Assembly: GCF_026427715.1 (NCBI RefSeq)
Contig: NZ_CP107558.1
Coordinates: 1,029,001 to 1,093,000, forward strand
From: Methylocystis sp. MJC1
Lineage (GTDB): Bacteria; Pseudomonadota; Alphaproteobacteria; Rhizobiales; Beijerinckiaceae
Length of the DNA stretch: 64,000 bases
Reading direction: 5' to 3'
Shown here: piece by piece, positions 29,876-51,188 of the stretch
Layout of the letters: each line of letters opens with the position of its first letter
Numbering within the stretch: position 1 is the first letter of the stretch
Translations under genes and position numbers: made by a program
Notes under the pieces: generated by a model
The model's database searches: none
Told to the model about the DNA's origin: nothing
The model's input: only the letters and a program-made list of their open reading frames with translations

Positions 29876-29889
29876 GCGGAGAGAGAAAA

Positions 29890-32569: not shown

Positions 32570-32816
32570 GTGCACGAACGAGCAACCTTGGAGCGGTGGT
32601 TGAAAGGGGGCGTGCGCCATCCATCCTTATACCTGCGCTTCGTGCGGTCCGCGTTTTTTACCCTGGCCATTGCGGCCGGGGCCGTAATTGCTTGTCTTTC
32701 TCTTGGCGTCGCTCAGACCTCGACGCCCGCCGGCACTTTCAATCCGACGTTTGGGCAGCCTTTACATGGGAAGTTCGACCACGCACGAACAGGATTCCTG
32801 CTGACAAACAGCCACG
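32570..32816 (+). pseudogene. N-terminal (signal-peptide) segment of the giant multiheme cytochrome, severed by IS21
   Basis: 82 codons. After a basic N-terminal stretch comes a hydrophobic signal helix (FFTLAIAAGAVIACLSLGVA, cleavage likely after VAQT), then FNPTFGQPLHGKFDHARTGF and LLTNSH, the usual opening of a polyheme c7-type domain just before the first CxxCH. The frame is cut after the CCACG at 32812-32816. Deleting the IS21 element and one CCACG copy joins TNSH to GQAACESCH in the long frame: 247 + 15,707 bases = 5,318 codons including the stop. Confidence 0.85.
32812..32816 (+). repeat. IS21 target-site duplication, left copy
   Basis: CCACG, repeated at 35477-35481 on the other side of the element. 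Confidence 0.75.
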
Positions 32817-32971
32817 TGTCAATGGCGGGGACAAAATGTGCATGATGGCGGCGCAAAAGTGTACCGGTCTGGTTTCGAGAAAAGGGCCCTGTGGCCCTTG
32901 TAGTTTGCGTTGCCGCGCGCGTTGAGGCGCGCGGAGCGTAGCGAAGCGCGGCTCAACGCGCGCGGCGGCGT

Positions 32972-33814
32972 TCAGTTCTTCGTGTCGGCGTCTCCTTTGT
33001 CGATGGCGGGCGCGTCGGCGAGATCGCGGCCGCGGCGCTGTGCTTTCCTTGCGGTCGCGAGGCGATAGCTCTCGCCGTTCATTTCCAGAATGTGTACGTG
33101 ATGGGTGAGCCGGTCGAGCAGCGCGCCGGTGAGACGTTCCGACCCAAAGACGGACGTCCATTCATCAAAGGGCAAATTGCTGGTCACCAGCGTCGCGCCG
33201 CGTTCATAGCGCTGGCTGAAGACCTCGAAGAGCAGCTCGGAGCCGACCGCCGTGAACGGCACATAGCCCAGTTCGTCGACGATCAGCAGTTTGACGGTGT
33301 TGAGATGCTTTTGCAGCGCGCGCAGGCGGCGCTCGTCGCGCGCCTCCATCAGTTCGTGCACAAGAGCCGCGGCGGTTGTGAACGCGACGCTGAACCCTTT
33401 CTGGCAAGCGGCGAGCCCCAGGGCGAGCGCGACGTGAGTCTTCCCGGTCCCGGATGGACCGAGAGCGATGCAGTTCTGCCGCTTCTCGATCCATTCGCAC
33501 CGCGCCAGCTCCAGCACCAGCGGCTTGTTGAGTGAAGGCTGGGCGGTAAAGTCGAAAGTGTCGAGGCTCTTGACCTGCGTAAAACGCGCCAGCCGGATGC
33601 GGCGCTCGACATTGCGCCGCTCGCGATCAATGCGCTCCAGTTCGCACAGGCGCAGCAGATAGCGGGGGTAATTGGCGCGGTCCTGCGCCGACTCCAGCGC
33701 GACTTTCTCATATTCGCGCGCGAAGGTGGGAAGCTTCAGCGCCTTGAGGTGATTGCCCAGTAGCACCTGCGGCGCGACGATCGTTTGCGAGCCCGGCTCA
33801 TGCGAGGTGGTCAT
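32972..33814 (-). CDS. istB: IS21-family helper ATPase IstB
   Basis: 280 residues, AAA+ ATPase. Walker A ALGPSGTGKTHVALALG, Walker B LLIVDELGYVPF, plus SERLTGALLDRLTHHVHILE near the C-terminus. It stimulates IstA. Overlaps istA by 4 bases (ATGA). Intact. Confidence 0.95.
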   Translation of the reverse strand: MTTSHEPGSQTIVAPQVLLGNHLKALKLPTFAREYEKVALESAQDRANYPRYLLRLCELERIDRERRNVERRIRLARFTQVKSLDTFDFTAQPSLNKPLVLELARCEWIEKRQNCIALGPSGTGKTHVALALGLAACQKGFSVAFTTAAALVHELMEARDERRLRALQKHLNTVKLLIVDELGYVPFTAVGSELLFEVFSQRYERGATLVTSNLPFDEWTSVFGSERLTGALLDRLTHHVHILEMNGESYRLATARKAQRRGRDLADAPAIDKGDADTKN

Positions 33815-35349
33815 GCCGGACCTCCCGCGGTCGTCTCCATGACGCCCACAATGACGCTCGCGCCGGCGACGAGCCCGAGATAGGCGCGCGGATCCGTCGC
33901 GCCGACCGTGGCCGCCGGCAGGTAGGGGTAGAATGTCAGATCGAGCCGCGCGGGCCGGTTCTCCAGCTTGGCCAGCAGCAGCATCTTCACCGCGTCGAAG
34001 CTGATCGCGCCAAGACGCAGCGCCTCCGCAACCGCCTGTTCGACTTGATGCTGGTGAAAATCCTCCATCAGCCGCAGCACCTGGATGAACTCGCGACGCC
34101 CGCTATTCCCCATGCGCGCCTCCATCAGCCGCCGCAAGCGATGCACACAGTCGGCCAGACGCCAGTCGTCGAGCGGCGCGGCCTGATCGAGCGCGCGGCT
34201 CTTGTGTTCGAGCAAGGCGAGATAATGCAGCGGGTTGTAGATGAACTCGGCCTTGTCGTAGCTGCGCGCATGCACGGCGATCGTCTCCCCGCCGCAGACA
34301 ATCTCAACCCGATCGACATAGCCCTTCGCCAGCACCTCCCGATGGCCGTAACGCGTCGGGACCGAGTAATCATTGTTGCGGTAGCGCACCAGCGCCATCG
34401 ACGACACGCGCGTCGCGACTTTGTGGCAGGCGTCATAGGGCGCCGGCGGCGCCGGCAGGAATGCCGCCATATCCGCCTGCATGCGTTCGCCGATCGGCGT
34501 CGAATGACCACGCAGGATCGCCTGCCGGCGTTTCGTGCAGGCGTCCAGGAACCTCGCGTTCAGCGCCTCGAAACTCTCCGCCACGGGCAGCGGCGTCATG
34601 AAGTTGCGCCGGACATAGCCGACAAGCCCCTCGACCTTGCCCTTGTCGTTCCCCTTACCAGGCCGGCCAAAGCGATCGGCAAAAAGATAGTGGCTCTGGA
34701 GTTCCGCAAACATTTGCGAACGCAGACGCTCTCCACCCTTCACGATCCTCGCGACCGCGAGACGCGTATTGTCATACAGAATGGACTGCGGGACGCCGCC
34801 GAAAAAGGCGACCGCCGCGACATGGCCGTCGCAGAAGGCTTCCGCCGTCTCTGCCGGATAGGCCTTGACGAAGCAGCCGTCCGAATGCGGCAGGTCCACG
34901 CAGAAATAATGAAAGCGGACCTTCCTGCCGGCGATGTAACCGTCCGCCTCGCCAAAATCCGCCTGCGCATGCCCCGGGCGATGGCTGAGCGGAATAAACA
35001 TCTCGCGCGACCGCAACTGCGCCTGCGCGACATATTCCCGGACGATCGTGTAGCCGCCAGAAAACCCTTCTTCGTCCCGTAGCCGTTCGAATATCCGCTG
35101 CGCCGTGTGCCGCTGCTTGGCGTGAACAAGCCGGTCACCCGCCAGGACCTTGTCGATCCAGGCCATATAAGGCCCCAGCTTCTTCGAAATCGGTCGCTCC
35201 CGGCGCCGATATCCCGGCGGAACCGAATATTGGAGCATCTTCGTGATCGTATTGCGGTGCACGCCAAAGCGCCTCGCCGCTTCCCGGCGGCTCAGCCCTT
35301 CCGCCATCACCGCGCGTCTCACCCGGGCATAGAGTTCCACTGTGAACAT
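33811..35349 (-). CDS. istA: IS21-family transposase IstA
   Basis: 512 residues. N-terminal HTH (SRREAARRFGVHRNTITKML), an rve integrase core (HAQADFGEADGY, SILYDNTRLAV with the second Asp, and GKGNDKGKVEGLVGYVRRNF carrying the catalytic Glu) and a C-terminal beta domain. Intact and coupled to istB. Confidence 0.95.
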   Translation of the reverse strand: MFTVELYARVRRAVMAEGLSRREAARRFGVHRNTITKMLQYSVPPGYRRRERPISKKLGPYMAWIDKVLAGDRLVHAKQRHTAQRIFERLRDEEGFSGGYTIVREYVAQAQLRSREMFIPLSHRPGHAQADFGEADGYIAGRKVRFHYFCVDLPHSDGCFVKAYPAETAEAFCDGHVAAVAFFGGVPQSILYDNTRLAVARIVKGGERLRSQMFAELQSHYLFADRFGRPGKGNDKGKVEGLVGYVRRNFMTPLPVAESFEALNARFLDACTKRRQAILRGHSTPIGERMQADMAAFLPAPPAPYDACHKVATRVSSMALVRYRNNDYSVPTRYGHREVLAKGYVDRVEIVCGGETIAVHARSYDKAEFIYNPLHYLALLEHKSRALDQAAPLDDWRLADCVHRLRRLMEARMGNSGRREFIQVLRLMEDFHQHQVEQAVAEALRLGAISFDAVKMLLLAKLENRPARLDLTFYPYLPAATVGATDPRAYLGLVAGASVIVGVMETTAGGPA

Positions 35350-35411
35350 CCTTTCGGCCTCTCCATGCCAGTCGATGACATCAAGTTCGGCCTATCAGGA
35401 CCGGTACAATT

Positions 35412-38400
35412 TTGCGCCGCCGTCACAGCTGCCCGCAAAGCCGGTTCAGTGGTACACTTTGCCGCCGCTGTTCATACCACGGACAGGCTGCCTGCGAATC
35501 GTGCCATATAGCCGGGCGATTCAAAAATACGCCGCGACTTTGCTACGCCTGCCACAATGGCTCCGTAACCATTGGAAAGTCAAAAACGCATCCCCCAACA
35601 ACGGAAAAGTGTGAGGGCTGCCATCTAACGACGCTGTTCACCGACATTCGGGTGATTGATCACACGCAAGCGTCGGTTATTTGCGCGGCCTGCCATAACG
35701 GGCAGATCGCGCGAGGCAAGCCAGCGTTTCATATTCGAACGGCCGCGCCCTGCGAACTCTGTCACAAAACCACGACGAATTTCATGGTCGCCGTGAAGAT
35801 GGATCACACGGGCATCGTGAGCGGTTGCGCGACCTGCCACGATAATGTGCGTGCCCTCGGAAAACCGCCGAGACATATCGCGACCAACCTACCTTGTGAG
35901 GTTTGTCACAAGAGCACGGTGACGTTCGCTGGAGCAAAATATCAGCACCAGGCGTCGGACACCAACTGTTCGTCCTGCCACAATGGGACGACGGCGACCG
36001 GGCAGACGACGCCGCCGCACATCCCGGTCGCCGGCGTGCAGTGCTCGAACTGCCACAGCAACACGGCGTCGAGCTTCAAGACCTATACGATGAGCCATGC
36101 GGCGGTGAGCGCGGCGCGCTGCGACAGCTGCCACAACGGCTCCTATGTCGGCGAGGGAACGAAGGGGGCGCAGGGCACGGCGTCCTATCCCGGCCACGTC
36201 GCCGTCGCCGGGCGCGACTGCAAGAGCTGCCACGCCACGGCCGCGACGACCTTCACGAGCTGGGCGGGCGGCGTCTATCAGCACCAGGCGTCGGACACCA
36301 ATTGTTCGTCCTGCCACAACGGCACGACGGCGACCGGGCAGACGACGCCGCCGCACATCCCGGTCGCCGGCGTGCAGTGCTCGAACTGCCACAGCAATAC
36401 GGCGTCGAGCTTCAAGACCTATACGATGAGCCATGCGGCGGTGAGCGCGGCGCGCTGCGACAGCTGCCACAACGGCTCCTATGTCGGCGAGGGAACGAAG
36501 GGGGCGCAGGGCACGGCGTCCTATCCCGGCCACGTCGCCGTCGCCGGCCGCGACTGCAAGAGCTGCCACGCCACGGCCGCGACGACCTTCACGAGCTGGG
36601 CGGGCGGCGTCTATCAGCACCAGGCGTCCGACACCAACTGCGCCTCCTGCCACAACGGGACGACGGCGACCGGCCAGACGACGCCGCCGCACATCCCGGC
36701 GGCGGGCGTGCAGTGCTCGAACTGCCACAGCAATACGGCGTCGAGCTTCAAGACCTATACGATGAGCCATGCGGCGGTGAGCGCGGCGCGCTGCGACAGC
36801 TGCCACAACGGCTCCTACACGGGCGAGGGAACGAAGGGGGCGCAGGGCACGGCTTCCTATCCCGGCCACGTCGCCGTCGCCGGGCGCGACTGCAAGAGCT
36901 GCCACGCCACGGCCGCGACGACCTTCACGAGCTGGGCGGGCGGCGTCTATCAGCACCAGGCGTCGGACACCAATTGTTCGTCCTGCCACAATGGCACGAC
37001 GGCGACCGGCCAGACGACGCCGCCGCACATCCCGGCGGCGGGCGTGCAGTGCTCGAACTGCCACAGCAACACGGCGTCGAGCTTCAAGACCTATACGATG
37101 AGCCATGCGGCGGTGAGCGCGGCGCGCTGCGACAGCTGCCACAACGGCTCCTATGTCGGCGAGGGAACGAAGGGGGCGCAGGGCACGGCTTCCTATCCTG
37201 GCCACGTCGCCGTCGCCGGCCGCGACTGCAAGAGCTGCCACGCCACGGCCGCGACGACCTTCACGAGCTGGGCGGGCGGCGTCTATCAGCACCAGGCGTC
37301 GGACACCAATTGTTCGTCCTGCCACAATGGCACGACGGCGACCGGCCAGACGACGCCGCCGCACATCCCGGCGGCGGGCGTGCAGTGCTCGAACTGCCAC
37401 AGCAACACGGCGTCGAGCTTCAAGACCTATACGATGAGCCATGCGGCGGTGAGCGCGGCGCGCTGCGACAGCTGCCACAACGGCTCCTATGTCGGCGAGG
37501 GAACGAAGGGGGCGCAGGGCACGGCTTCCTATCCTGGCCACGTCGCCGTCGCCGGCCGCGACTGCAAGAGCTGCCACGCCACGGCCGCGACGACCTTCAC
37601 GAGCTGGGCGGGCGGCGTCTATCAGCACCAGGCGTCCGACACCAACTGCGCGTCCTGCCACAACGGCACGACGGCGACCGGGCAGACGACGCCGCCGCAC
37701 ATCCCGGCGGCCGGCGTGCAGTGCTCGAACTGCCACAGCAACACGGCGTCGAGCTTCAAGACCTATACGATGAGCCATGCGGCGGTGAGCGCGGCGCGCT
37801 GCGACAGCTGCCACAACGGCTCCTACACGGGCGAGGGAACGAAGGGGGCGCAGGGCACGGCGTCCTATCCCGGCCACGTCGCCGTCGCCGGCCGCGACTG
37901 CAAGAGCTGCCACGCCACGGCCGCGACGACCTTCACGAGCTGGGCGGGCGGCGTCTATCAGCACCAGGCGTCGGACACCAATTGTTCGTCCTGCCACAAT
38001 GGCACGACGGCGACCGGCCAGACGACGCCGCCGCACATCCCGGCGGCGGGCGTGCAGTGCTCGAACTGCCACAGCAACACGGCGTCGAGCTTCAAGACCT
38101 ATACGATGAGCCATGCGGCGGTGAGCGCGGCGCGCTGCGACAGCTGCCACAACGGCTCCTATGTCGGCGAGGGAACGAAGGGGGCGCAGGGCACGGCGTC
38201 CTATCCCGGCCACGTCGCCGTCGCCGGCCGCGACTGCAAGAGCTGCCACGCCACGGCCGCGACGACCTTCACGAGCTGGGCGGGCGGCGTCTATCAGCAC
38301 CAGGCGTCGGACACCAACTGCGCGTCCTGCCACAACGGCACGACGGCGACCGGCCAGACGACGCCGCCGCACATCCCGGTCGCCGGCGTGCAGTGCTCGA

Positions 38401-41400
38401 ACTGCCACAGCAACACGGCGTCGAGCTTCAAGACCTATACGATGAGCCATGCGGCGGTGAGCGCGGCGCGCTGCGACAGCTGCCACAACGGCTCCTATGT
38501 CGGCGAGGGAACGAAGGGGGCGCAGGGCACGGCGTCCTATCCCGGCCACGTCGCCGTCGCCGGCCGCGACTGCAAGAGCTGCCACGCCACGGCCGCGACG
38601 ACCTTCACGAGCTGGGCGGGCGGCGTCTATCAGCACCAGGCGTCCGACACCAACTGCGCGTCCTGCCACAACGGCACGACGGCGACCGGGCAGACGACGC
38701 CGCCGCACATCCCGGCGGCGGGCGTGCAGTGCTCGAACTGCCACAGCAATACGGCGTCGAGCTTCAAGACCTATACGATGAGCCATGCGGCGGTGAGCGC
38801 GGCGCGCTGCGACAGCTGCCACAACGGCTCCTATGTCGGCGAGGGAACGAAGGGGGCGCAGGGCACGGCGTCCTATCCCGGCCACGTCGCCGTCGCCGGC
38901 CGCGACTGCAAGAGCTGCCACGCCACGGCCGCGACGACCTTCACGAGCTGGGCGGGCGGCGTCTATCAGCACCAGGCGTCCGACACCAACTGCGCCTCCT
39001 GCCACAACGGGACGACGGCGACCGGCCAGACGACGCCGCCGCACATCCCGGCGGCGGGCGTGCAGTGCTCGAACTGCCACAGCAATACGGCGTCGAGCTT
39101 CAAGACCTATACGATGAGCCATGCGGCGGTGAGCGCGGCGCGCTGCGACAGCTGCCACAACGGCTCCTACACGGGCGAGGGAACGAAGGGGGCGCAGGGC
39201 ACGGCTTCCTATCCCGGCCACGTCGCCGTCGCCGGGCGCGACTGCAAGAGCTGCCACGCCACGGCCGCGACGACCTTCACGAGCTGGGCGGGCGGCGTCT
39301 ATCAGCACCAGGCGTCGGACACCAATTGTTCGTCCTGCCACAATGGCACGACGGCGACCGGCCAGACGACGCCGCCGCACATCCCGGCGGCGGGCGTGCA
39401 GTGCTCGAACTGCCACAGCAACACGGCGTCGAGCTTCAAGACCTATACGATGAGCCATGCGGCGGTGAGCGCGGCGCGCTGCGACAGCTGCCACAACGGC
39501 TCCTATGTCGGCGAGGGAACGAAGGGGGCGCAGGGCACGGCTTCCTATCCTGGCCACGTCGCCGTCGCCGGCCGCGACTGCAAGAGCTGCCACGCCACGG
39601 CCGCGACGACCTTCACGAGCTGGGCGGGCGGCGTCTATCAGCACCAGGCGTCGGACACCAATTGTTCGTCCTGCCACAATGGCACGACGGCGACCGGCCA
39701 GACGACGCCGCCGCACATCCCGGCGGCGGGCGTGCAGTGCTCGAACTGCCACAGCAACACGGCGTCGAGCTTCAAGACCTATACGATGAGCCATGCGGCG
39801 GTGAGCGCGGCGCGCTGCGACAGCTGCCACAACGGCTCCTATGTCGGCGAGGGAACGAAGGGGGCGCAGGGCACGGCTTCCTATCCTGGCCACGTCGCCG
39901 TCGCCGGCCGCGACTGCAAGAGCTGCCACGCCACGGCCGCGACGACCTTCACGAGCTGGGCGGGCGGCGTCTATCAGCACCAGGCGTCCGACACCAACTG
40001 CGCGTCCTGCCACAACGGCACGACGGCGACCGGGCAGACGACGCCGCCGCACATCCCGGCGGCCGGCGTGCAGTGCTCGAACTGCCACAGCAACACGGCG
40101 TCGAGCTTCAAGACCTATACGATGAGCCATGCGGCGGTGAGCGCGGCGCGCTGCGACAGCTGCCACAACGGCTCCTACACGGGCGAGGGAACGAAGGGGG
40201 CGCAGGGCACGGCGTCCTATCCCGGCCACGTCGCCGTCGCCGGCCGCGACTGCAAGAGCTGCCACGCCACGGCCGCGACGACCTTCACGAGCTGGGCGGG
40301 CGGCGTCTATCAGCACCAGGCGTCGGACACCAATTGTTCGTCCTGCCACAATGGCACGACGGCGACCGGCCAGACGACGCCGCCGCACATCCCGGCGGCG
40401 GGCGTGCAGTGCTCGAACTGCCACAGCAACACGGCGTCGAGCTTCAAGACCTATACGATGAGCCATGCGGCGGTGAGCGCGGCGCGCTGCGACAGCTGCC
40501 ACAACGGCTCCTATGTCGGCGAGGGAACGAAGGGGGCGCAGGGCACGGCGTCCTATCCCGGCCACGTCGCCGTCGCCGGCCGCGACTGCAAGAGCTGCCA
40601 CGCCACGGCCGCGACGACCTTCACGAGCTGGGCGGGCGGCGTCTATCAGCACCAGGCGTCCGACACCAACTGCGCGTCCTGCCACAACGGGACGACGGCG
40701 ACCGGGCAGACGACGCCGCCGCACATCCCGGCGGCCGGCGTGCAGTGCTCGAACTGCCACAGCAACACGGCGTCGAGCTTCAAGACCTATACGATGAGCC
40801 ATGCGGCGGTGAGCGCGGCGCGCTGCGACAGCTGCCACAACGGCTCCTACACGGGCGAGGGAACGAAGGGGGCGCAGGGCACGGCGTCCTATCCCGGCCA
40901 CGTCGCCGTCGCCGGCCGCGACTGCAAGAGCTGCCACGCCACGGCCGCGACGACCTTCACGAGCTGGGCGGGCGGCGTCTATCAGCACCAGGCGTCGGAC
41001 ACCAATTGTTCGTCCTGCCACAATGGCACGACGGCGACCGGCCAGACGACGCCGCCGCACATCCCGGCGGCGGGCGTGCAGTGCTCGAACTGCCACAGCA
41101 ACACGGCGTCGAGCTTCAAGACCTATACGATGAGCCATGCGGCGGTGAGCGCGGCGCGCTGCGACAGCTGCCACAACGGCTCCTATGTCGGCGAGGGAAC
41201 GAAGGGGGCGCAGGGCACGGCGTCCTATCCCGGCCACGTCGCCGTCGCCGGCCGCGACTGCAAGAGCTGCCACGCGAACGCGGCGACGACCTTCACGAGC
41301 TGGGCGGGCGGCGTCTATCAGCACCAGGCGTCGGACACCAACTGCGCGTCCTGCCACAATGGCACGACGGCGACCGGCCAGACGACGCCGCCGCACATCC

Positions 41401-44400
41401 CGGCGGCCGGCGTGCAGTGCTCGAACTGCCACAGCAATACGGCGTCGAGCTTCAAGACCTATACGATGAGCCATGCGGCGGTGAGCGCGGCGCGCTGCGA
41501 CAGCTGCCACAACGGCTCCTATGTCGGCGAGGGAACGAAGGGGGCGCAGGGCACGGCGTCCTATCCCGGCCACGTCGCCGTCGCCGGCCGCGACTGCAAG
41601 AGCTGCCACGCCACGGCCGCGACGACCTTCACGAGCTGGGCGGGCGGCGTCTATCAGCACCAGGCGTCGGACACCAACTGTTCGTCCTGCCACAATGGGA
41701 CGACGGCGACCGGCCAGACGACGCCGCCGCACATCCCGGCGGCCGGCGTGCAGTGCTCGAACTGCCACAGCAATACGGCGTCGAGCTTCAAGACCTATAC
41801 GATGAGCCATGCGGCGGTGAGCGCGGCGCGCTGCGACAGCTGCCACAACGGCTCCTATGTCGGCGAGGGAACGAAGGGGGCGCAGGGCACGGCGTCCTAT
41901 CCCGGCCACGTCGCCGTCGCCGGCCGCGACTGCAAGAGCTGCCACGCCACGGCCGCGACGACCTTCACGAGCTGGGCGGGCGGCGTCTATCAGCACCAGG
42001 CGTCCGACACCAACTGCGCCTCCTGCCACAACGGGACGACGGCGACCGGCCAGACGACGCCGCCGCACATCCCGGCGGCCGGCGTGCAGTGCTCGAACTG
42101 CCACAGCAATACGGCGTCGAGCTTCAAGACCTATACGATGAGCCATGCGGCGGTGAGCGCGGCGCGCTGCGACAGCTGCCACAACGGCTCCTATGTCGGC
42201 GAGGGAACGAAGGGGGCGCAGGGCACGGCGTCCTATCCCGGCCACGTCGCCGTCGCCGGCCGCGACTGCAAGAGCTGCCACGCGAACGCGGCGACGACCT
42301 TCACGAGCTGGGCGGGCGGCGTCTATCAGCACCAGGCGTCGGACACCAACTGTTCGTCCTGCCACAATGGGACGACGGCGACCGGCCAGACGACGCCGCC
42401 GCACATCCCGGCGGCCGGCGTGCAGTGCTCGAACTGCCACAGCAATACGGCGTCGAGCTTCAAGACCTATACGATGAGCCATGCGGCGGTGAGCGCGGCG
42501 CGCTGCGACAGCTGCCACAACGGCTCCTATGTCGGCGAGGGAACGAAGGGGGCGCAGGGCACGGCGTCCTATCCCGGCCACGTCGCCGTCGCCGGCCGCG
42601 ACTGCAAGAGCTGCCACGCGAACGCGGCGACGACCTTCACGAGCTGGGCGGGCGGCGTCTATCAGCACCAGGCGTCGGACACCAACTGTTCGTCCTGCCA
42701 CAATGGGACGACGGCGACCGGCCAGACGACGCCGCCGCACATCCCGGCGGCGGGCGTGCAGTGCTCGAACTGCCACAGCAACACGGCGTCGAGCTTCAAG
42801 ACCTATACGATGAGCCATGCGGCGGTGAGCGCGGCGCGCTGCGACAGCTGCCACAACGGCTCCTATGTCGGCGAGGGAACGAAGGGGGCGCAGGGCACGG
42901 CGTCCTATCCCGGCCACGTCGCCGTCGCCGGCCGCGACTGCAAGAGCTGCCACGCGAACGCGGCGACGACCTTCACGAGCTGGGCGGGCGGCGTCTATCA
43001 GCACCAGGCGTCGGACACCAACTGTTCGTCCTGCCACAATGGGACGACGGCGACCGGCCAGACGACGCCGCCGCACATCCCGGCGGCCGGCGTGCAGTGC
43101 TCGAACTGCCACAGCAATACGGCGTCGAGCTTCAAGACCTATACGATGAGCCATGCGGCGGTGAGCGCGGCGCGCTGCGACAGCTGCCACAACGGCTCCT
43201 ATGTCGGCGAGGGAACGAAGGGGGCGCAGGGCACGGCGTCCTATCCCGGCCACGTCGCCGTCGCTGGCCGCGACTGCAAGAGCTGCCACGCCACGGCCGC
43301 GACGACCTTCACGAGCTGGGCGGGCGGCGTCTATCAGCACCAGGCGTCGGACACCAACTGTTCGTCCTGCCACAATGGGACGACGGCGACCGGCCAGACG
43401 ACGCCGCCGCACATCCCGGTCGCCGGCGTGCAGTGCTCGAACTGCCACAGCAACACGGCGTCGAGCTTCAAGACCTATACGATGAGCCATGCGGCGGTGA
43501 GCGCGGCGCGCTGCGACAGCTGCCACAACGGCTCCTATGTCGGCGAGGGAACGAAGGGGGCGCAGGGCACGGCGTCCTATCCCGGCCACGTCGCCGTCGC
43601 CGGCCGCGACTGCAAGAGCTGCCACGCGAACGCGGCGACGACCTTCACGAGCTGGGCGGGCGGCGTCTATCAGCACCAGGCGTCGGACACCAACTGTTCG
43701 TCCTGCCACAATGGGACGACGGCGACCGGCCAGACGACGCCGCCGCACATCCCGGTCGCCGGCGTGCAGTGCTCGAACTGCCACAGCAATACGGCGTCGA
43801 GCTTCAAGACCTATACGATGAGCCATGCGGCGGTGAGCGCGGCGCGCTGCGACAGCTGCCACAACGGCTCCTATGTCGGCGAGGGAACGAAGGGGGCGCA
43901 GGGCACGGCGTCCTATCCTGGCCACGTCGCCGTCGCCGGCCGCGACTGCAAGAGCTGCCACGCCACGGCCGCGACGACCTTCACGAGCTGGGCGGGCGGC
44001 GTCTATCAGCACCAGGCGTCGGACACCAATTGTTCGTCCTGCCACAACGGCACGACGGCGACCGGGCAGACGACGCCGCCGCACATCCCGGTCGCCGGCG
44101 TGCAGTGCTCGAACTGCCACAGCAATACGGCGTCGAGCTTCAAGACCTATACGATGAGCCATGCGGCGGTGAGCGCGGCGCGCTGCGACAGCTGCCACAA
44201 CGGCTCCTATGTCGGCGAGGGAACGAAGGGGGCGCAGGGCACGGCGTCCTATCCCGGCCACGTCGCCGTCGCCGGCCGCGACTGCAAGAGCTGCCACGCC
44301 ACGGCCGCGACGACCTTCACGAGCTGGGCGGGCGGCGTCTATCAGCACCAGGCGTCCGACACCAACTGCGCCTCCTGCCACAACGGGACGACGGCGACCG

Positions 44401-47400
44401 GCCAGACGACGCCGCCGCACATCCCGGCGGCGGGCGTGCAGTGCTCGAACTGCCACAGCAATACGGCGTCGAGCTTCAAGACCTATACGATGAGCCATGC
44501 GGCGGTGAGCGCGGCGCGCTGCGACAGCTGCCACAACGGCTCCTACACGGGCGAGGGAACGAAGGGGGCGCAGGGCACGGCTTCCTATCCCGGCCACGTC
44601 GCCGTCGCCGGGCGCGACTGCAAGAGCTGCCACGCCACGGCCGCGACGACCTTCACGAGCTGGGCGGGCGGCGTCTATCAGCACCAGGCGTCGGACACCA
44701 ATTGTTCGTCCTGCCACAATGGCACGACGGCGACCGGCCAGACGACGCCGCCGCACATCCCGGCGGCGGGCGTGCAGTGCTCGAACTGCCACAGCAACAC
44801 GGCGTCGAGCTTCAAGACCTATACGATGAGCCATGCGGCGGTGAGCGCGGCGCGCTGCGACAGCTGCCACAACGGCTCCTATGTCGGCGAGGGAACGAAG
44901 GGGGCGCAGGGCACGGCTTCCTATCCTGGCCACGTCGCCGTCGCCGGCCGCGACTGCAAGAGCTGCCACGCCACGGCCGCGACGACCTTCACGAGCTGGG
45001 CGGGCGGCGTCTATCAGCACCAGGCGTCGGACACCAATTGTTCGTCCTGCCACAATGGCACGACGGCGACCGGCCAGACGACGCCGCCGCACATCCCGGC
45101 GGCGGGCGTGCAGTGCTCGAACTGCCACAGCAACACGGCGTCGAGCTTCAAGACCTATACGATGAGCCATGCGGCGGTGAGCGCGGCGCGCTGCGACAGC
45201 TGCCACAACGGCTCCTATGTCGGCGAGGGAACGAAGGGGGCGCAGGGCACGGCTTCCTATCCTGGCCACGTCGCCGTCGCCGGCCGCGACTGCAAGAGCT
45301 GCCACGCCACGGCCGCGACGACCTTCACGAGCTGGGCGGGCGGCGTCTATCAGCACCAGGCGTCCGACACCAACTGCGCGTCCTGCCACAACGGCACGAC
45401 GGCGACCGGGCAGACGACGCCGCCGCACATCCCGGCGGCCGGCGTGCAGTGCTCGAACTGCCACAGCAACACGGCGTCGAGCTTCAAGACCTATACGATG
45501 AGCCATGCGGCGGTGAGCGCGGCGCGCTGCGACAGCTGCCACAACGGCTCCTACACGGGCGAGGGAACGAAGGGGGCGCAGGGCACGGCGTCCTATCCCG
45601 GCCACGTCGCCGTCGCCGGCCGCGACTGCAAGAGCTGCCACGCCACGGCCGCGACGACCTTCACGAGCTGGGCGGGCGGCGTCTATCAGCACCAGGCGTC
45701 GGACACCAATTGTTCGTCCTGCCACAATGGCACGACGGCGACCGGCCAGACGACGCCGCCGCACATCCCGGCGGCGGGCGTGCAGTGCTCGAACTGCCAC
45801 AGCAACACGGCGTCGAGCTTCAAGACCTATACGATGAGCCATGCGGCGGTGAGCGCGGCGCGCTGCGACAGCTGCCACAACGGCTCCTATGTCGGCGAGG
45901 GAACGAAGGGGGCGCAGGGCACGGCGTCCTATCCCGGCCACGTCGCCGTCGCCGGCCGCGACTGCAAGAGCTGCCACGCCACGGCCGCGACGACCTTCAC
46001 GAGCTGGGCGGGCGGCGTCTATCAGCACCAGGCGTCGGACACCAACTGCGCGTCCTGCCACAACGGCACGACGGCGACCGGCCAGACGACGCCGCCGCAC
46101 ATCCCGGTCGCCGGCGTGCAGTGCTCGAACTGCCACAGCAACACGGCGTCGAGCTTCAAGACCTATACGATGAGCCATGCGGCGGTGAGCGCGGCGCGCT
46201 GCGACAGCTGCCACAACGGGTCCTATGTCGGCGAGGGAACGAAGGGGGCGCAGGGCACGGCGTCCTATCCCGGCCACGTCGCCGTCGCCGGCCGCGACTG
46301 CAAGAGCTGCCACGCCACGGCCGCGACGACCTTCACGAGCTGGGCGGGCGGCGTCTATCAGCACCAGGCGTCCGACACCAACTGCGCGTCCTGCCACAAC
46401 GGCACGACGGCGACCGGGCAGACGACGCCGCCGCACATCCCGGTCGCCGGCGTGCAGTGCTCGAACTGCCACAGCAATACGGCGTCGAGCTTCAAGACCT
46501 ATACGATGAGCCATGCGGCGGTGAGCGCGGCGCGCTGCGACAGCTGCCACAACGGCTCCTATGTCGGCGAGGGAACGAAGGGGGCGCAGGGCACGGCTTC
46601 CTATCCCGGCCACGTCGCCGTCGCCGGGCGCGACTGCAAGAGCTGCCACGCCACGGCCGCGACGACCTTCACGAGCTGGGCGGGCGGCGTCTATCAGCAC
46701 CAGGCGTCCGACACCAACTGCGCCTCCTGCCACAACGGGACGACGGCGACCGGCCAGACGACGCCGCCGCACATCCCGGCGGCGGGCGTGCAGTGCTCGA
46801 ACTGCCACAGCAATACGGCGTCGAGCTTCAAGACCTATACGATGAGCCATGCGGCGGTGAGCGCGGCGCGCTGCGACAGCTGCCACAACGGCTCCTATGT
46901 CGGCGAGGGAACGAAGGGGGCGCAGGGCACGGCGTCCTATCCCGGCCACGTCGCCGTCGCCGGCCGCGACTGCAAGAGCTGCCACGCCACGGCCGCGACG
47001 ACCTTCACGAGCTGGGCGGGCGGCGTCTATCAGCACCAGGCGTCGGACACCAATTGTTCGTCCTGCCACAACGGGACGACGGCGACCGGCCAGACGACGC
47101 CGCCGCACATCCCGGCGGCCGGCGTGCAGTGCTCGAACTGCCACAGCAATACGGCGTCGAGCTTCAAGACCTATACGATGAGCCATGCGGCGGTGAGCGC
47201 GGCGCGCTGCGACAGCTGCCACAACGGCTCCTACACGGGCGAGGGAACGAAGGGGGCGCAGGGCACGGCTTCCTATCCCGGCCACGTCGCCGTCGCCGGC
47301 CGCGACTGCAAGAGCTGCCACGCCACGGCCGCGACGACCTTCACGAGCTGGGCGGGCGGCGTCTATCAGCACCAGGCGTCGGACACCAACTGCGCGTCCT

Positions 47401-50400
47401 GCCACAACGGCACGACGGCGACCGGCCAGACGACGCCGCCGCACATCCCGGTCGCCGGCGTGCAGTGCTCGAACTGCCACAGCAACACGGCGTCGAGCTT
47501 CAAGACCTATACGATGAGCCATGCGGCGGTGAGCGCGGCGCGCTGCGACAGCTGCCACAACGGCTCCTACACGGGCGAGGGAACGAAGGGGGCGCAGGGC
47601 ACGGCGTCCTATCCCGGCCACGTCGCCGTCGCCGGGCGCGACTGCAAGAGCTGCCACGCCACGGCCGCGACGACCTTCACGAGCTGGGCGGGCGGCGTCT
47701 ATCAGCACCAGGCGTCGGACACCAATTGTTCGTCCTGCCACAACGGCACGACGGCGACCGGGCAGACGACGCCGCCGCACATCCCGGTCGCCGGCGTGCA
47801 GTGCTCGAACTGCCACAGCAATACGGCGTCGAGCTTCAAGACCTATACGATGAGCCATGCGGCGGTGAGCGCGGCGCGCTGCGACAGCTGCCACAACGGC
47901 TCCTATGTCGGCGAGGGAACGAAGGGGGCGCAGGGCACGGCGTCCTATCCCGGCCACGTCGCCGTCGCCGGGCGCGACTGCAAGAGCTGCCACGCCACGG
48001 CCGCGACGACCTTCACGAGCTGGGCGGGCGGCGTCTATCAGCACCAGGCGTCCGACACCAACTGCGCCTCCTGCCACAATGGCACGACGGCGACCGGGCA
48101 GACGACGCCGCCGCACATCCCGGTCGCCGGCGTGCAGTGCTCGAACTGCCACAGCAACACGGCGTCGAGCTTCAAGACCTATACGATGAGCCATGCGGCG
48201 GTGAGCGCGGCGCGCTGCGACAGCTGCCACAACGGCTCCTATGTCGGCGAGGGAACGAAGGGGGCGCAGGGCACGGCGTCCTATCCCGGCCACGTCGCCG
48301 TCGCCGGCCGCGACTGCAAGAGCTGCCACGCCACGGCCGCGACGACCTTCACGAGCTGGGCGGGCGGCGTCTATCAGCACCAGGCGTCCGACACCAACTG
48401 CGCCTCCTGCCACAATGGCACGACGGCGACCGGGCAGACGACGCCGCCGCACATCCCGGTCGCCGGCGTGCAGTGCTCGAACTGCCACAGCAACACGGCG
48501 TCGAGCTTCAAGACCTATACGATGAGCCATGCGGCGGTGAGCGCGGCGCGCTGCGACAGCTGCCACAACGGCTCCTATGTCGGCGAGGGAACGAAGGGGG
48601 CGCAGGGCACGGCGTCCTATCCCGGCCACGTCGCCGTCGCCGGCCGCGACTGCAAGAGCTGCCACGCCACGGCCGCGACGACCTTCACGAGCTGGGCGGG
48701 CGGCGTCTATCAGCACCAGGCGTCGGACACCAACTGTTCGTCCTGCCACAATGGGACGACGGCGACCGGCCAGACGACGCCGCCGCACATCCCGGTCGCC
48801 GGCGTGCAGTGCTCGAACTGCCACAGCAATACGGCGTCGAGCTTCCAAACGGCGAATATGAATCACGGGTCCGTGACGTCGATCCGCTGTGACAGCTGCC
48901 ACAACGGGTCTTTCACAAGCCAGGGGGCCCGGGGTAAACCGAGCGACCATCCGAAAACCACCGCGGATTGCGGTTGCTGCCATTCGACGAACAGCTGGGA
49001 GAATCCGAAGCGGAGCGCGGGAACGTGCACAACGACGACCACAGGGGCGGCTTCTCCCGCGGCGCCCGCGGTTTCGCCGGCTCTTCGATCGGTGTTGAGG
49101 GCCCTGACTGGTAACGCAGCTGGGCCAGTTGGTCGACCCGGTTTGTCTGCCGATAGCGTGGTACAGCCGGCGCCTCTGCGTCCGAGCATTGGGGCGCCGA
49201 TCCTTGGCGTCGGGCTTGCTCCGCCGGCCGCCTCAGCTGTTGCTCCGGCTTTGGGCGTCCCTCCGAGGGGGAACGGGAACTTCGGATCAGTGATCGCCGG
49301 CCGTCAGACAGGCCCGGTTGGAGTCAAATTCGACCATCTGACCGCAATCGGACCATGCGCGCGCTGCCACAACGGAAGAGAGGCGCTTGGCAAGCCGCCG
49401 ATACATGTTCCCACCTCCGCGGCTTGTGACGCCTGTCACAAGACCACGCAGACATTCCACGGCGCCCGCTTCGAACACAGTCTTATCGCGGCGCCTTGCG
49501 CGAACTGTCACAATGGACGAGACGCTCAGGCGAAGCCCGCAAAGCACATTGTGACGACCGCGGGATGTGAAACCTGTCACAAGAGCACCAAGTCATTCGG
49601 CGGCGCACACTTCGAGCACATGGCCGTGGCGGCGCCATGTTCAAGTTGCCACAACGGTCGGGATGCGCAGGGCAAATCCGCTAACCACGTTTCGACGACG
49701 GCGGCCTGCGATACGTGCCACAAGAGCACGAAAACATTCGGCGGCGCGCGGTTTGATCACGGAGCCGCGGCGGCGCCATGCGCAAGCTGCCATAACGGCA
49801 AGGATGCGCCGGGCAAGCCCGCGAAACATGTTCCGACATCGGCGGCCTGCGATACGTGCCACAAGAGCACGAAGACATTCGGCGGCGCGCGGTTTGATCA
49901 CGGAGCCGTGGCGGCGCCATGCGCAAGTTGCCATAATGGCAGGGATGCGCCGGGCAAGCCGGCGAAACATGTTCCGACATCGGCGGCCTGCGATACGTGC
50001 CACAAGAGCACGAAGACATTCGGCGGCGCGCGGTTTGATCACGGAGCCGTGGCGGCGCCATGCGCCAGCTGCCATAATGGCAGGGATGCGCCGGGCAAGC
50101 CGGCGAAACATGTTCCGACATCGGCGGCCTGCGATACGTGCCACAAGAGCACGAAGACATTCGGCGGCGCGCGGTTTGATCACGGAGCCGCGGCGGCGCC
50201 ATGCGCAAGTTGCCATAACGGCACGGATGCGCCGGGCAAGCCCGCGAAACATGTCCTTACGATGGCGGCCTGCGATACGTGTCACAAGAGCACGAAAACA
50301 TTCGGCGGCGCGCGGTTTGATCACGGAGCTGCGGCGGCGCCATGCGCAAGTTGCCATAACGGCACGGATGCGCCGGGCAAGCCCGCGAAACATGTCCTTA

Positions 50401-51188
50401 CGATCGCGGCCTGCGATACGTGCCACAAGAGCACGAAAACGTTCGGCGGCGCGCGGTTCGATCACGCAGTCGCGGCGGCGCCATGCGCCAACTGCCATAA
50501 CGGCAAGGACGCGCCGGGCAAGCCCGCGAAACATGTTCTTACGATGGCGGCCTGCGATACGTGCCACAAGAGCACGAAGACATTCGGCGGCGCGCGGTTT
50601 GATCACGGAGCCGTGGCGGCGCCTTGCGCCAGCTGCCATAACGGCACGGATGCGCCGGGCAAGCCCGCGAAACATGTTCTTACGACGGCGGCCTGCGATA
50701 CGTGCCACAAGAGCACGAAGACATTCGGCGGCGCGCGGTTTGATCACGGAGCCGTGGCGGCGCCTTGCGCCAGCTGCCATAACGGTCTGGACGCGCCGGG
50801 CAAGCCTGCGAAACATGTTCCAACCTCGGCGGCCTGCGATACGTGCCACAAGAGCACGAAGACATTCGGCGGCGCGCGGTTTGATCACGGAGTCGTGGCG
50901 GCGCCTTGCGCCAGCTGCCATAACGGTCTGGACGCGCCGGGCAAGCCTGCGAAACATGTTCCAACCTCGGCGGCCTGCGATACGTGCCACAAGAGCATCA
51001 AGACGTTTGGGGGCGCGCGCTTCGATCACGCGGGCGTCACGGCTCCTTGCATCAGCTGTCATAACGGTCGGGATGCGACCGGAAAGTCTTTGAAGCACAT
51101 CGTAACAATGGCCTCGTGCGAGGAGTGCCACAAGAACACGATGAGCTTCGACATCGTTCGCCCGACCCTGCGCGATCGCGGATTCTGA
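35412..51188 (+). CDS. Giant multiheme c-type cytochrome (189 CxxCH motifs), body of the gene
   Basis: The open frame begins at a TTG within the IS21 end; native sequence starts at 35477-35481 and continues to the stop at 51188. With the detached N-terminal part (32570-32816) the protein would be 5,317 residues. Order: 7 CxxCH motifs in a divergent leader; 38 complete 112-residue units each with four motifs (CxSCH, CSNCH, CDSCH, CKSCH), plus a 39th divergent unit with four; a Pro/Ala-rich linker (~49020-49320) with no heme sites; then 13 units of 47 residues, each with two. 7+156+26 = 189. Each 112-residue unit has exactly four additional His (YQH, PPH, MSH, PGH), one before each CxxCH, and each 47-residue unit has two (FDH, AKH), so every repeat heme can be bis-His ligated. 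Predicted periplasmic or extracellular electron wire. As it stands the gene lacks its signal peptide and is probably not exported. Confidence 0.9.
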   Translation: MRRRHSCPQSRFSGTLCRRCSYHGQAACESCHIAGRFKNTPRLCYACHNGSVTIGKSKTHPPTTEKCEGCHLTTLFTDIRVIDHTQASVICAACHNGQIARGKPAFHIRTAAPCELCHKTTTNFMVAVKMDHTGIVSGCATCHDNVRALGKPPRHIATNLPCEVCHKSTVTFAGAKYQHQASDTNCSSCHNGTTATGQTTPPHIPVAGVQCSNCHSNTASSFKTYTMSHAAVSAARCDSCHNGSYVGEGTKGAQGTASYPGHVAVAGRDCKSCHATAATTFTSWAGGVYQHQASDTNCSSCHNGTTATGQTTPPHIPVAGVQCSNCHSNTASSFKTYTMSHAAVSAARCDSCHNGSYVGEGTKGAQGTASYPGHVAVAGRDCKSCHATAATTFTSWAGGVYQHQASDTNCASCHNGTTATGQTTPPHIPAAGVQCSNCHSNTASSFKTYTMSHAAVSAARCDSCHNGSYTGEGTKGAQGTASYPGHVAVAGRDCKSCHATAATTFTSWAGGVYQHQASDTNCSSCHNGTTATGQTTPPHIPAAGVQCSNCHSNTASSFKTYTMSHAAVSAARCDSCHNGSYVGEGTKGAQGTASYPGHVAVAGRDCKSCHATAATTFTSWAGGVYQHQASDTNCSSCHNGTTATGQTTPPHIPAAGVQCSNCHSNTASSFKTYTMSHAAVSAARCDSCHNGSYVGEGTKGAQGTASYPGHVAVAGRDCKSCHATAATTFTSWAGGVYQHQASDTNCASCHNGTTATGQTTPPHIPAAGVQCSNCHSNTASSFKTYTMSHAAVSAARCDSCHNGSYTGEGTKGAQGTASYPGHVAVAGRDCKSCHATAATTFTSWAGGVYQHQASDTNCSSCHNGTTATGQTTPPHIPAAGVQCSNCHSNTASSFKTYTMSHAAVSAARCDSCHNGSYVGEGTKGAQGTASYPGHVAVAGRDCKSCHATAATTFTSWAGGVYQHQASDTNCASCHNGTTATGQTTPPHIPVAGVQCSNCHSNTASSFKTYTMSHAAVSAARCDSCHNGSYVGEGTKGAQGTASYPGHVAVAGRDCKSCHATAATTFTSWAGGVYQHQASDTNCASCHNGTTATGQTTPPHIPAAGVQCSNCHSNTASSFKTYTMSHAAVSAARCDSCHNGSYVGEGTKGAQGTASYPGHVAVAGRDCKSCHATAATTFTSWAGGVYQHQASDTNCASCHNGTTATGQTTPPHIPAAGVQCSNCHSNTASSFKTYTMSHAAVSAARCDSCHNGSYTGEGTKGAQGTASYPGHVAVAGRDCKSCHATAATTFTSWAGGVYQHQASDTNCSSCHNGTTATGQTTPPHIPAAGVQCSNCHSNTASSFKTYTMSHAAVSAARCDSCHNGSYVGEGTKGAQGTASYPGHVAVAGRDCKSCHATAATTFTSWAGGVYQHQASDTNCSSCHNGTTATGQTTPPHIPAAGVQCSNCHSNTASSFKTYTMSHAAVSAARCDSCHNGSYVGEGTKGAQGTASYPGHVAVAGRDCKSCHATAATTFTSWAGGVYQHQASDTNCASCHNGTTATGQTTPPHIPAAGVQCSNCHSNTASSFKTYTMSHAAVSAARCDSCHNGSYTGEGTKGAQGTASYPGHVAVAGRDCKSCHATAATTFTSWAGGVYQHQASDTNCSSCHNGTTATGQTTPPHIPAAGVQCSNCHSNTASSFKTYTMSHAAVSAARCDSCHNGSYVGEGTKGAQGTASYPGHVAVAGRDCKSCHATAATTFTSWAGGVYQHQASDTNCASCHNGTTATGQTTPPHIPAAGVQCSNCHSNTASSFKTYTMSHAAVSAARCDSCHNGSYTGEGTKGAQGTASYPGHVAVAGRDCKSCHATAATTFTSWAGGVYQHQASDTNCSSCHNGTTATGQTTPPHIPAAGVQCSNCHSNTASSFKTYTMSHAAVSAARCDSCHNGSYVGEGTKGAQGTASYPGHVAVAGRDCKSCHANAATTFTSWAGGVYQHQASDTNCASCHNGTTATGQTTPPHIPAAGVQCSNCHSNTASSFKTYTMSHAAVSAARCDSCHNGSYVGEGTKGAQGTASYPGHVAVAGRDCKSCHATAATTFTSWAGGVYQHQASDTNCSSCHNGTTATGQTTPPHIPAAGVQCSNCHSNTASSFKTYTMSHAAVSAARCDSCHNGSYVGEGTKGAQGTASYPGHVAVAGRDCKSCHATAATTFTSWAGGVYQHQASDTNCASCHNGTTATGQTTPPHIPAAGVQCSNCHSNTASSFKTYTMSHAAVSAARCDSCHNGSYVGEGTKGAQGTASYPGHVAVAGRDCKSCHANAATTFTSWAGGVYQHQASDTNCSSCHNGTTATGQTTPPHIPAAGVQCSNCHSNTASSFKTYTMSHAAVSAARCDSCHNGSYVGEGTKGAQGTASYPGHVAVAGRDCKSCHANAATTFTSWAGGVYQHQASDTNCSSCHNGTTATGQTTPPHIPAAGVQCSNCHSNTASSFKTYTMSHAAVSAARCDSCHNGSYVGEGTKGAQGTASYPGHVAVAGRDCKSCHANAATTFTSWAGGVYQHQASDTNCSSCHNGTTATGQTTPPHIPAAGVQCSNCHSNTASSFKTYTMSHAAVSAARCDSCHNGSYVGEGTKGAQGTASYPGHVAVAGRDCKSCHATAATTFTSWAGGVYQHQASDTNCSSCHNGTTATGQTTPPHIPVAGVQCSNCHSNTASSFKTYTMSHAAVSAARCDSCHNGSYVGEGTKGAQGTASYPGHVAVAGRDCKSCHANAATTFTSWAGGVYQHQASDTNCSSCHNGTTATGQTTPPHIPVAGVQCSNCHSNTASSFKTYTMSHAAVSAARCDSCHNGSYVGEGTKGAQGTASYPGHVAVAGRDCKSCHATAATTFTSWAGGVYQHQASDTNCSSCHNGTTATGQTTPPHIPVAGVQCSNCHSNTASSFKTYTMSHAAVSAARCDSCHNGSYVGEGTKGAQGTASYPGHVAVAGRDCKSCHATAATTFTSWAGGVYQHQASDTNCASCHNGTTATGQTTPPHIPAAGVQCSNCHSNTASSFKTYTMSHAAVSAARCDSCHNGSYTGEGTKGAQGTASYPGHVAVAGRDCKSCHATAATTFTSWAGGVYQHQASDTNCSSCHNGTTATGQTTPPHIPAAGVQCSNCHSNTASSFKTYTMSHAAVSAARCDSCHNGSYVGEGTKGAQGTASYPGHVAVAGRDCKSCHATAATTFTSWAGGVYQHQASDTNCSSCHNGTTATGQTTPPHIPAAGVQCSNCHSNTASSFKTYTMSHAAVSAARCDSCHNGSYVGEGTKGAQGTASYPGHVAVAGRDCKSCHATAATTFTSWAGGVYQHQASDTNCASCHNGTTATGQTTPPHIPAAGVQCSNCHSNTASSFKTYTMSHAAVSAARCDSCHNGSYTGEGTKGAQGTASYPGHVAVAGRDCKSCHATAATTFTSWAGGVYQHQASDTNCSSCHNGTTATGQTTPPHIPAAGVQCSNCHSNTASSFKTYTMSHAAVSAARCDSCHNGSYVGEGTKGAQGTASYPGHVAVAGRDCKSCHATAATTFTSWAGGVYQHQASDTNCASCHNGTTATGQTTPPHIPVAGVQCSNCHSNTASSFKTYTMSHAAVSAARCDSCHNGSYVGEGTKGAQGTASYPGHVAVAGRDCKSCHATAATTFTSWAGGVYQHQASDTNCASCHNGTTATGQTTPPHIPVAGVQCSNCHSNTASSFKTYTMSHAAVSAARCDSCHNGSYVGEGTKGAQGTASYPGHVAVAGRDCKSCHATAATTFTSWAGGVYQHQASDTNCASCHNGTTATGQTTPPHIPAAGVQCSNCHSNTASSFKTYTMSHAAVSAARCDSCHNGSYVGEGTKGAQGTASYPGHVAVAGRDCKSCHATAATTFTSWAGGVYQHQASDTNCSSCHNGTTATGQTTPPHIPAAGVQCSNCHSNTASSFKTYTMSHAAVSAARCDSCHNGSYTGEGTKGAQGTASYPGHVAVAGRDCKSCHATAATTFTSWAGGVYQHQASDTNCASCHNGTTATGQTTPPHIPVAGVQCSNCHSNTASSFKTYTMSHAAVSAARCDSCHNGSYTGEGTKGAQGTASYPGHVAVAGRDCKSCHATAATTFTSWAGGVYQHQASDTNCSSCHNGTTATGQTTPPHIPVAGVQCSNCHSNTASSFKTYTMSHAAVSAARCDSCHNGSYVGEGTKGAQGTASYPGHVAVAGRDCKSCHATAATTFTSWAGGVYQHQASDTNCASCHNGTTATGQTTPPHIPVAGVQCSNCHSNTASSFKTYTMSHAAVSAARCDSCHNGSYVGEGTKGAQGTASYPGHVAVAGRDCKSCHATAATTFTSWAGGVYQHQASDTNCASCHNGTTATGQTTPPHIPVAGVQCSNCHSNTASSFKTYTMSHAAVSAARCDSCHNGSYVGEGTKGAQGTASYPGHVAVAGRDCKSCHATAATTFTSWAGGVYQHQASDTNCSSCHNGTTATGQTTPPHIPVAGVQCSNCHSNTASSFQTANMNHGSVTSIRCDSCHNGSFTSQGARGKPSDHPKTTADCGCCHSTNSWENPKRSAGTCTTTTTGAASPAAPAVSPALRSVLRALTGNAAGPVGRPGLSADSVVQPAPLRPSIGAPILGVGLAPPAASAVAPALGVPPRGNGNFGSVIAGRQTGPVGVKFDHLTAIGPCARCHNGREALGKPPIHVPTSAACDACHKTTQTFHGARFEHSLIAAPCANCHNGRDAQAKPAKHIVTTAGCETCHKSTKSFGGAHFEHMAVAAPCSSCHNGRDAQGKSANHVSTTAACDTCHKSTKTFGGARFDHGAAAAPCASCHNGKDAPGKPAKHVPTSAACDTCHKSTKTFGGARFDHGAVAAPCASCHNGRDAPGKPAKHVPTSAACDTCHKSTKTFGGARFDHGAVAAPCASCHNGRDAPGKPAKHVPTSAACDTCHKSTKTFGGARFDHGAAAAPCASCHNGTDAPGKPAKHVLTMAACDTCHKSTKTFGGARFDHGAAAAPCASCHNGTDAPGKPAKHVLTIAACDTCHKSTKTFGGARFDHAVAAAPCANCHNGKDAPGKPAKHVLTMAACDTCHKSTKTFGGARFDHGAVAAPCASCHNGTDAPGKPAKHVLTTAACDTCHKSTKTFGGARFDHGAVAAPCASCHNGLDAPGKPAKHVPTSAACDTCHKSTKTFGGARFDHGVVAAPCASCHNGLDAPGKPAKHVPTSAACDTCHKSIKTFGGARFDHAGVTAPCISCHNGRDATGKSLKHIVTMASCEECHKNTMSFDIVRPTLRDRGF
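35477..35481 (+). repeat. IS21 target-site duplication, right copy
   Basis: CCACG, as at 32812-32816. Confidence 0.75.
35940..48845 (+). repeat. Tandem array of 336-bp units (38 complete plus 138 bp of a 39th)
   Basis: TATCAGCACCAGGCGTC recurs every 336 bp from 35940 to 48708 without any change in unit length. Copies differ at only a few positions (for example TCGTCC/GCCTCC before CACAA, CCGGTCGCC/CCGGCGGCG, TATGTCGGC/TACACGGGC, CACGCCACG/CACGCGAAC). Variant order shows higher-order duplication: units 3-8 (36612-38627) and 26-31 (44340-46355) carry the same variant series, and 10-14 repeat the first five. Confidence 0.97.
49329..51161 (+). repeat. Second tandem array, 13 units of 141 bp
   Basis: FDH codons occur every 141 bp from 49329 to 51021. 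Each unit encodes FDH...CxxCHNGxDAxGK...H...CxTCHKSTK with two heme sites. Outer units are diverged, inner ones (49752-50900) nearly identical, so this array has also expanded recently from its middle. Confidence 0.95.

Follow-up and report, generated by a model that had tools for sequence, protein, structure and literature searches.

The window, by which we mean the whole analysed stretch of 64,000 nucleotides (contig NZ_CP107558.1, positions 1,029,001 to 1,093,000), comes from the genome of Methylocystis sp. MJC1 (G000), which comprises 4.54 Mb in 4 contigs. It contains a gene for a giant multiheme cytochrome, which is split by an IS21-family element and lies among genes for another cytochrome, membrane proteins and heme maturation. 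The features are as follows:
27205..28506, minus strand: 4Fe-4S and FAD/NAD(P) oxidoreductase (Fe-S flavoprotein) with an N-terminal hydrophobic stretch
28973..29875, plus strand: inner-membrane protein (IMP), 300 aa, with SGVIG and two WX3HX13H motifs
29794..31467, plus strand: partner cytochrome, 21 CxxCH, N-terminal hydrophobic stretch
32570..32816, plus strand: 5' piece of the giant cytochrome gene, with GTG start, hydrophobic leader (recognized by eye) and the first spare His region
32817..35476, unstranded: IS21-family element, 2,660 bp
32972-33814, minus strand: IstB-like frame in the IS21
33811-35349, minus strand: IstA-like frame in the IS21
35379-51188, plus strand: heme part of the giant gene, a single stop-to-stop frame (coding to 51185) of 5,269 residues
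35477..51188, plus strand: 3' remainder of the giant gene, one ORF with all 189 CxxCH
35493..35942, plus strand: N-terminal domain, 7 CxxCH with spacing 16-23-24-23-25-23
35943..48710, plus strand: 38 full tandem units of 336 bp (112 aa), 4 CxxCH each
48711..49046, plus strand: divergent 39th unit, 4 CxxCH
from the 39th unit to 49355, plus strand: linker without heme motifs, 129 residues from motif to motif
49356..51188, plus strand: C-terminal array, 13 units of 47 aa, 26 CxxCH
51676..54951, plus strand: TPR and outer-membrane beta-barrel protein, putative porin, 1,091 aa
58829..60295, minus strand: CcmI-type cytochrome c maturation protein
61175..63175, minus strand: CcmF heme lyase
63492..63998, plus strand: start of a 5-aminolevulinate synthase gene (heme biosynthesis), which runs beyond the window

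A regular-expression count gives 189 CxxCH motifs in the frame 35379-51185 (+), the very number that a preliminary description of this DNA had claimed for one frame; 200 shuffles of the residues of this frame contain 2.0 motifs on average and 6 at most. The layout of 7 motifs in the N-terminal domain, 152 in the 38 full units, 4 in the divergent 39th unit and 26 in the C-terminal array agrees with the breakdown of 7 + 39x4 + 13x2 given there. Counted from the GTG at 32570, the coding lengths on both sides of the IS21 also sum in frame, as a matter of arithmetic only, to the 5,317 residues stated before, which corresponds to 28.1 residues per heme (5,317/189). The role ascribed to removal of the element has to be divided: the 5,317 codons do need both sides, but the count of 189 needs no removal, as the IS21 lies ahead of every motif. 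Of the 8 His in the first 112-residue unit, 4 belong to CxxCH, which leaves the four further His that were described for each unit. The proposal that a His precedes each CxxCH is largely borne out as well. Exactly one spare His is present in 185 of 190 intervals between or beside the motifs, with none in two intervals, two in two and three in one; the first of these intervals takes in residues of the IS21 end, and its His count is therefore not meaningful. The heme part has a calculated mass of 529 kDa without heme and would reach about 0.65 MDa when loaded with 189 hemes. An antisense ORF of 4,364 aa (35889-48983, minus strand) runs through the repeat array. It is probably a by-product of codon usage in the open repeats.

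The 38 full units, with the divergent 39th left out, share a mean pairwise DNA identity of 97.3% and occur in 25 distinct DNA versions and 10 distinct protein versions. Twenty codons vary among them, 16 only silently and 4 with a change of protein. One of the protein-changing codons lies inside the first CxxCH of the unit, where it specifies Ser or Ala; the Cys, the motif His and the spare His are the same in all 38 units. Pairwise pS is 0.089 and pN 0.0082, giving a low pN/pS of 0.092, which gene conversion among the copies could partly produce. The variant order 2-3-3-4-5 occurs three times in the array, and we take this recurrence as a sign of block duplication. In alignments, the 112-aa unit is 63-65% identical to four segments of locus L016. 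A comparison of 22 aligned 12-heme segments drawn from 10 contigs, that of the window among them, shows 11 of the query's 12 CxxCH to be invariant, the exception being the first one, at the edge of the alignment; all 11 spare His between the motifs are invariant too. AlphaFold2 models of three 112-aa units (12 alignment rows, pLDDT 41.5) and of 284 residues from the 47-aa array that include 12 motifs (22 rows, pLDDT 46.1) are of low confidence, too low for fold searches.

Relatives within the genus differ greatly in length. The C-terminal part is matched in 4 of 39 Methylocystis genomes, the window's own included, some of the others being incomplete. Methylocystis bryophila (G006, a plasmid of which agrees in its first 6,000 bases with M. 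bryophila records) has an intact ortholog of 5,918 aa, which begins at an ATG with a leader-like stretch and carries 190 CxxCH. Its array is made of 40 full units of 124 aa (about 41 copies in all), 36 of them distinct in DNA, with a mean DNA identity of 96.6% and pN/pS of 0.212; the partner cytochrome and IMP are encoded there on the strand opposite to the giant gene. By contrast to the two giants, the ortholog in M. parvus (G008) has 311 residues, 9 CxxCH and no four-heme unit. Its partners are kept, and the array can therefore be regarded as dispensable for the core function. In the same species, a 180-aa IMP-like frame (L043:17142-17684, minus strand) covers about half of the window IMP, and a barrel protein (L043:18913-19998, plus strand) matches that of the window from about residue 197 onward. 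A further relative (G036) has N- and C-terminal parts, and here a 339-bp repeat present in 2.3 identical copies adjoins a run of N; an array was probably collapsed at this scaffold gap. Between the window and M. bryophila, the units are 53% alike in protein and the end domains 66-70%. Because units are about 97% alike in DNA within a species and only 53% alike in protein between the two, the arrays seem to turn over as a block, each species renewing its own.

The best reading of the giant cytochrome is an extreme outer cytochrome of the PCC3 type, not a new kind of protein. According to the text of He et al. 2017 (PMC5566968), a PCC3 cluster encodes a porin, an outer cytochrome, a periplasmic cytochrome (median 21 hemes) and an IMP of about 300 aa with five TM helices, SGxxG and two WX3HX13H; the outer cytochrome contains repeats, 22-39 residues per heme, and a median of 34 and maximum of 85 hemes. 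Each of these components has its counterpart here. The barrel gene at 51676-54951 passes the OMP_b-brl cut-off with a modest score (31.4 bits vs 28.7); a PDB sequence search with this protein matched only its TPR part and nothing in the barrel region. The cytochrome at 29794-31467 carries 21 CxxCH and would, by analogy, be the periplasmic subunit; the start called for it at 29794 falls within the IMP gene and is perhaps set too far upstream. The IMP has the expected size, SGVIG for SGxxG, both WX3HX13H motifs and about five hydrophobic stretches (Kyte-Doolittle). The giant cytochrome itself consists of repeats, and its 28 residues per heme fall inside the published range. What sets it apart is the number of motifs, 189 in the window and 190 in M. 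bryophila against the published values, further its host, which is a methanotroph (three AMO/PmoA family matches in G000 are over the cut-off), and the presence in the same genus of a 9-motif ortholog without units. Later papers give 10-35 and 10-57 hemes for PCC3 outer cytochromes, and a paper from 2025 calls PCC3 function untested; we also draw on PMC10734462, PMC12442390, PMC11374530 and PMC13386937.

The neighbourhood is shared beyond the genus. We compared 20 genomes with a related gene side by side, several of their loci being cut by contig ends, and left cross-hits between the two cytochromes out of the neighbour counts. The IMP is found near the related gene in 17 of 20, a partner with 18-27 hemes also in 17, the barrel protein in 15, the Fe-S flavoprotein in 14 and CcmF in 10. 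These loci are not all independent, since L014, filed under Rhizobium, resembles Thiobacillus L010; gene positions and spacing of this Rhizobium MAG cluster are those of L010, and it is perhaps wrongly binned. A Sel1 and ankyrin-repeat protein, encoded in the window at 25647-27242 (minus strand), accompanies the cluster as well at 6 of the 20 loci (L015, L016, L019, G036, G006, G008). The Fe-S flavoprotein is likely a cytoplasmic partner of PCC3. Neither ferredoxin nor ccm is mentioned in the main text of PMC5566968, and the links to the cytoplasm and to heme loading may therefore be additions to the PCC3 scheme.

In the genus of G424, which we took as Bradyrhizobium, 11 of 265 genomes match, and eight of these have CxxCH counts of 43, 53, 61, 73, 85, at least 95 (contig end), 101 and 123. 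The spacing signature of the window protein recurs in genomes of this group with 43-123 motifs, among them G868, whose 85 motifs equal those of the published S58 protein. Other outer-cytochrome frames that we counted have 13 to 89 motifs, several being cut by contig or locus ends; some matches, e.g. G1184 (2,385 aa), G1199 and G1256, were left out of the heme counts. Matches, some of them weak, were found in 9 of 397 genomes sampled from the order and 14 of 398 from the phylum (the window's own included in both), and in 29 of 399 from the order around G650. Among the matches listed for these three samples, no ORF is longer than the two Methylocystis giants.

Other known systems resemble the giant cytochrome less closely. 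The preliminary description had set it against MtrC and OmcS, which it called far smaller, but this set was too narrow, as PCC3 cytochromes reach 85 hemes and an archaeal cytochrome with 113 hemes is in print (2020, PMC7082337). The latter, from Methanoperedens manganireducens, is likewise a very large multiheme cytochrome of a methane oxidiser with proposed extracellular electron transfer; by its description in that paper, on which this comparison rests, it differs in being archaeal, in its S-layer fusion and in having fewer hemes. Among decaheme proteins, the 47-aa array matches the PDB chain 6r2q_A in a sequence search (E 3.9e-7), which we take to be MtrA, the PDB table naming this chain otherwise. 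The MtrA/DmsE model TIGR03508 gives 145.3 and 122.1 bits on two pieces of the giant cytochrome, below its cut-off of 192.2, and the two parts have 26 and 163 motifs instead of 10. No second decaheme system over the TIGR03508 cut-off was found in the whole genome; a weak match on contig C2 has 8 CxxCH. The OmcA/MtrC decaheme model TIGR03507 likewise remains below its cut-off (86.8 and 80.3 bits on two pieces vs 209.3). PF22113 (MtrC/MtrF domains II/IV), by contrast, exceeds its cut-off of 30 (55.6 and 57.3 bits), and Cytochrome_C7, Paired_CXXCH_1 and TIGR01905 exceed theirs. TIGR04257 'nanowire_3heme' (c(7)-type triheme, cut-off 40) scores 79.7 bits on the piece with 112-aa units and 32.6 on the C-terminal one, with no single stretch over 40. 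We read the matches to general CxxCH models as a response to dense heme motifs, not as membership. The filaments of OmcS, OmcE and OmcZ are bis-His heme chains for long-range conduction, as the array may be, but they are built by polymerisation of small subunits, whereas here one polypeptide carries the whole array. No chain named OmcS, OmcE or OmcZ appears among the PDB sequence matches at E <= 1.

In the account that we favour and consider fairly likely, a PCC3-type outer cytochrome was enlarged by repeated duplication of a four-heme unit until it carried 189 heme sites, and serves as a modular conductor directed outward. Its part as a multiheme electron conductor, already proposed in the preliminary description, is well supported by motif spacing, spare His, partner genes and orthologs. 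Of the two placements suggested at that time, spanning of the periplasm has been put forward in print as the task of the PCC3 partner with 21-27 hemes, not of this subunit, and extension outward from the cell appears to fit the giant cytochrome better. Smaller PCC3 cytochromes have been modelled as long and mostly linear. We infer location, heme loading and conduction as follows. The intact protein would be exported and loaded with hemes by Ccm proteins, some of which are encoded next door. Its conserved end domains might hold it at the barrel protein, and the tandem array would then form a long string of bis-His hemes reaching outward from this base. Electrons could travel between the side of quinone or NAD(P)H, represented by the IMP and the Fe-S flavoprotein, and the giant cytochrome by way of the 21-heme periplasmic cytochrome and the barrel; the giant cytochrome would exchange them, in either direction, with iron oxides, humic matter or a similar partner outside the cell. 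Outward flow would correspond to methane oxidation at low oxygen, inward flow to iron oxidation; export of methane-derived electrons at low oxygen is our preferred guess. The array may be seen as a length module, which recombination would lengthen or shorten between end domains that persist. In linear cytochromes each heme takes 0.7-0.8 nm. At this spacing a chain of 189 hemes would be about 130-150 nm long and extend far outside the envelope, against a few nm only for the 9-motif ortholog. A review refers to Methylosinus and Methylomonas strains that couple the oxidation of methane to the reduction of ferrihydrite, and notes that outer-membrane cytochromes are absent from the Methylomonas strain.

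A bolder version of this account is possible, though we doubt it: the chain of about 0.6 MDa would be a continuous heme wire of at least about 100 nm leaving the cell, and Methylocystis would gain and lose four-heme units to set its length between 9 and about 190 hemes. The arrays of 112-aa and 124-aa units appear to have turned over separately, yet they end at 189 and 190 motifs, which hints at a selected size.

Alternatively, the protein might be an electron store, a capacitor in the periplasm or on the cell surface, whose hemes keep charge and even out supply and demand instead of conducting over distance. Such a role for PCC3 has been raised in print as an alternative; 189 heme sites on one chain would make a large store, and the number of motifs varies about 20-fold while the partners are kept. 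Regular spacing with bis-His at each step suits conduction equally, however, and a chain that stores charge must conduct as well. We regard storage as unlikely. Somewhat less likely still is neutral growth of the repeats, in which the array expands as near-identical units recombine, the cell tolerates this, and selection places no value on length. The range from 9 to 190 motifs within one genus speaks for it, as do the recurring multi-unit blocks and the separate unit of each species. On the other hand, pN/pS is 0.09 in the window and 0.21 in M. bryophila, frames remain open across 13-15 kb, the heme-binding residues stay constant in the window copies despite the one variable Ser/Ala motif residue, and a protein with 189 hemes is costly. 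Finally, we consider it very improbable that the copy number is inflated or wrong through misassembly: 336-bp units that are 97% identical are hard to assemble, and the repeat beside the run of N in G036 looks as if collapsed, but the source genomes of the two giant arrays consist of 4 and 2 contigs, the 38 full units in the window comprise 25 distinct DNA versions within an unbroken frame, and another species carries its own array of similar size.

The outward conductor that we prefer concerns the intact gene, and the copy in the window is interrupted. The IS21 is flanked by a 5-bp target duplication CCACG (32812-32816 and 35477-35481) and lies between the 5' piece, with its start and leader, and the first CxxCH (35493), all 189 motifs lying downstream of the element. 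The N-terminus encoded by the 5' piece is matched by orthologs at loci L042 and L041. The only other full-length copy of the element in the genome (G000:C2:2793-5452), whose relatives are annotated istA and istB, is 100% identical over 2,660 bases, and the insertion is therefore probably recent. Attachment of c-type heme requires export. With its leader cut off, the protein would miss the compartment where this takes place, and the giant cytochrome of this genome is therefore probably silent, a point absent from the preliminary description. A truncated, leaderless protein might still be started from within the IS21, as the frame stays open into the end of the element and offers 5,258 aa from a TTG at 35412, but we consider this very unlikely, since the leader sits across the element from the heme part and a product that is not exported obtains no c-type heme.

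The locus has gathered several insertion elements. A region of several broken frames at 31590-32290, between the 21-heme gene and the giant gene, looks by eye like the remnant of a transposase, and an IS66-family transposase (55440-56975, minus strand) directly follows the barrel gene. Elsewhere in the window, an integrase-like protein (6418-7623, plus strand) is followed by replication-type genes, by eye possibly an integrated mobile element.

Taken together, the 189 and 190 CxxCH of the two Methylocystis proteins stand well above the maxima of 85 (2017) and 113 (2020) that are stated in the publications found by a limited literature search. Since the array of G036 appears to be collapsed, short-read assemblies may lose such arrays, and others are perhaps hidden. 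If our reading is true, it places a giant electron conduit in aerobic methanotrophs, a group in which the use of iron oxides at low oxygen is being studied. Proteins with 9, 43-123 and 190 motifs that share the same partners would then represent a natural test of wire length in electron exchange.
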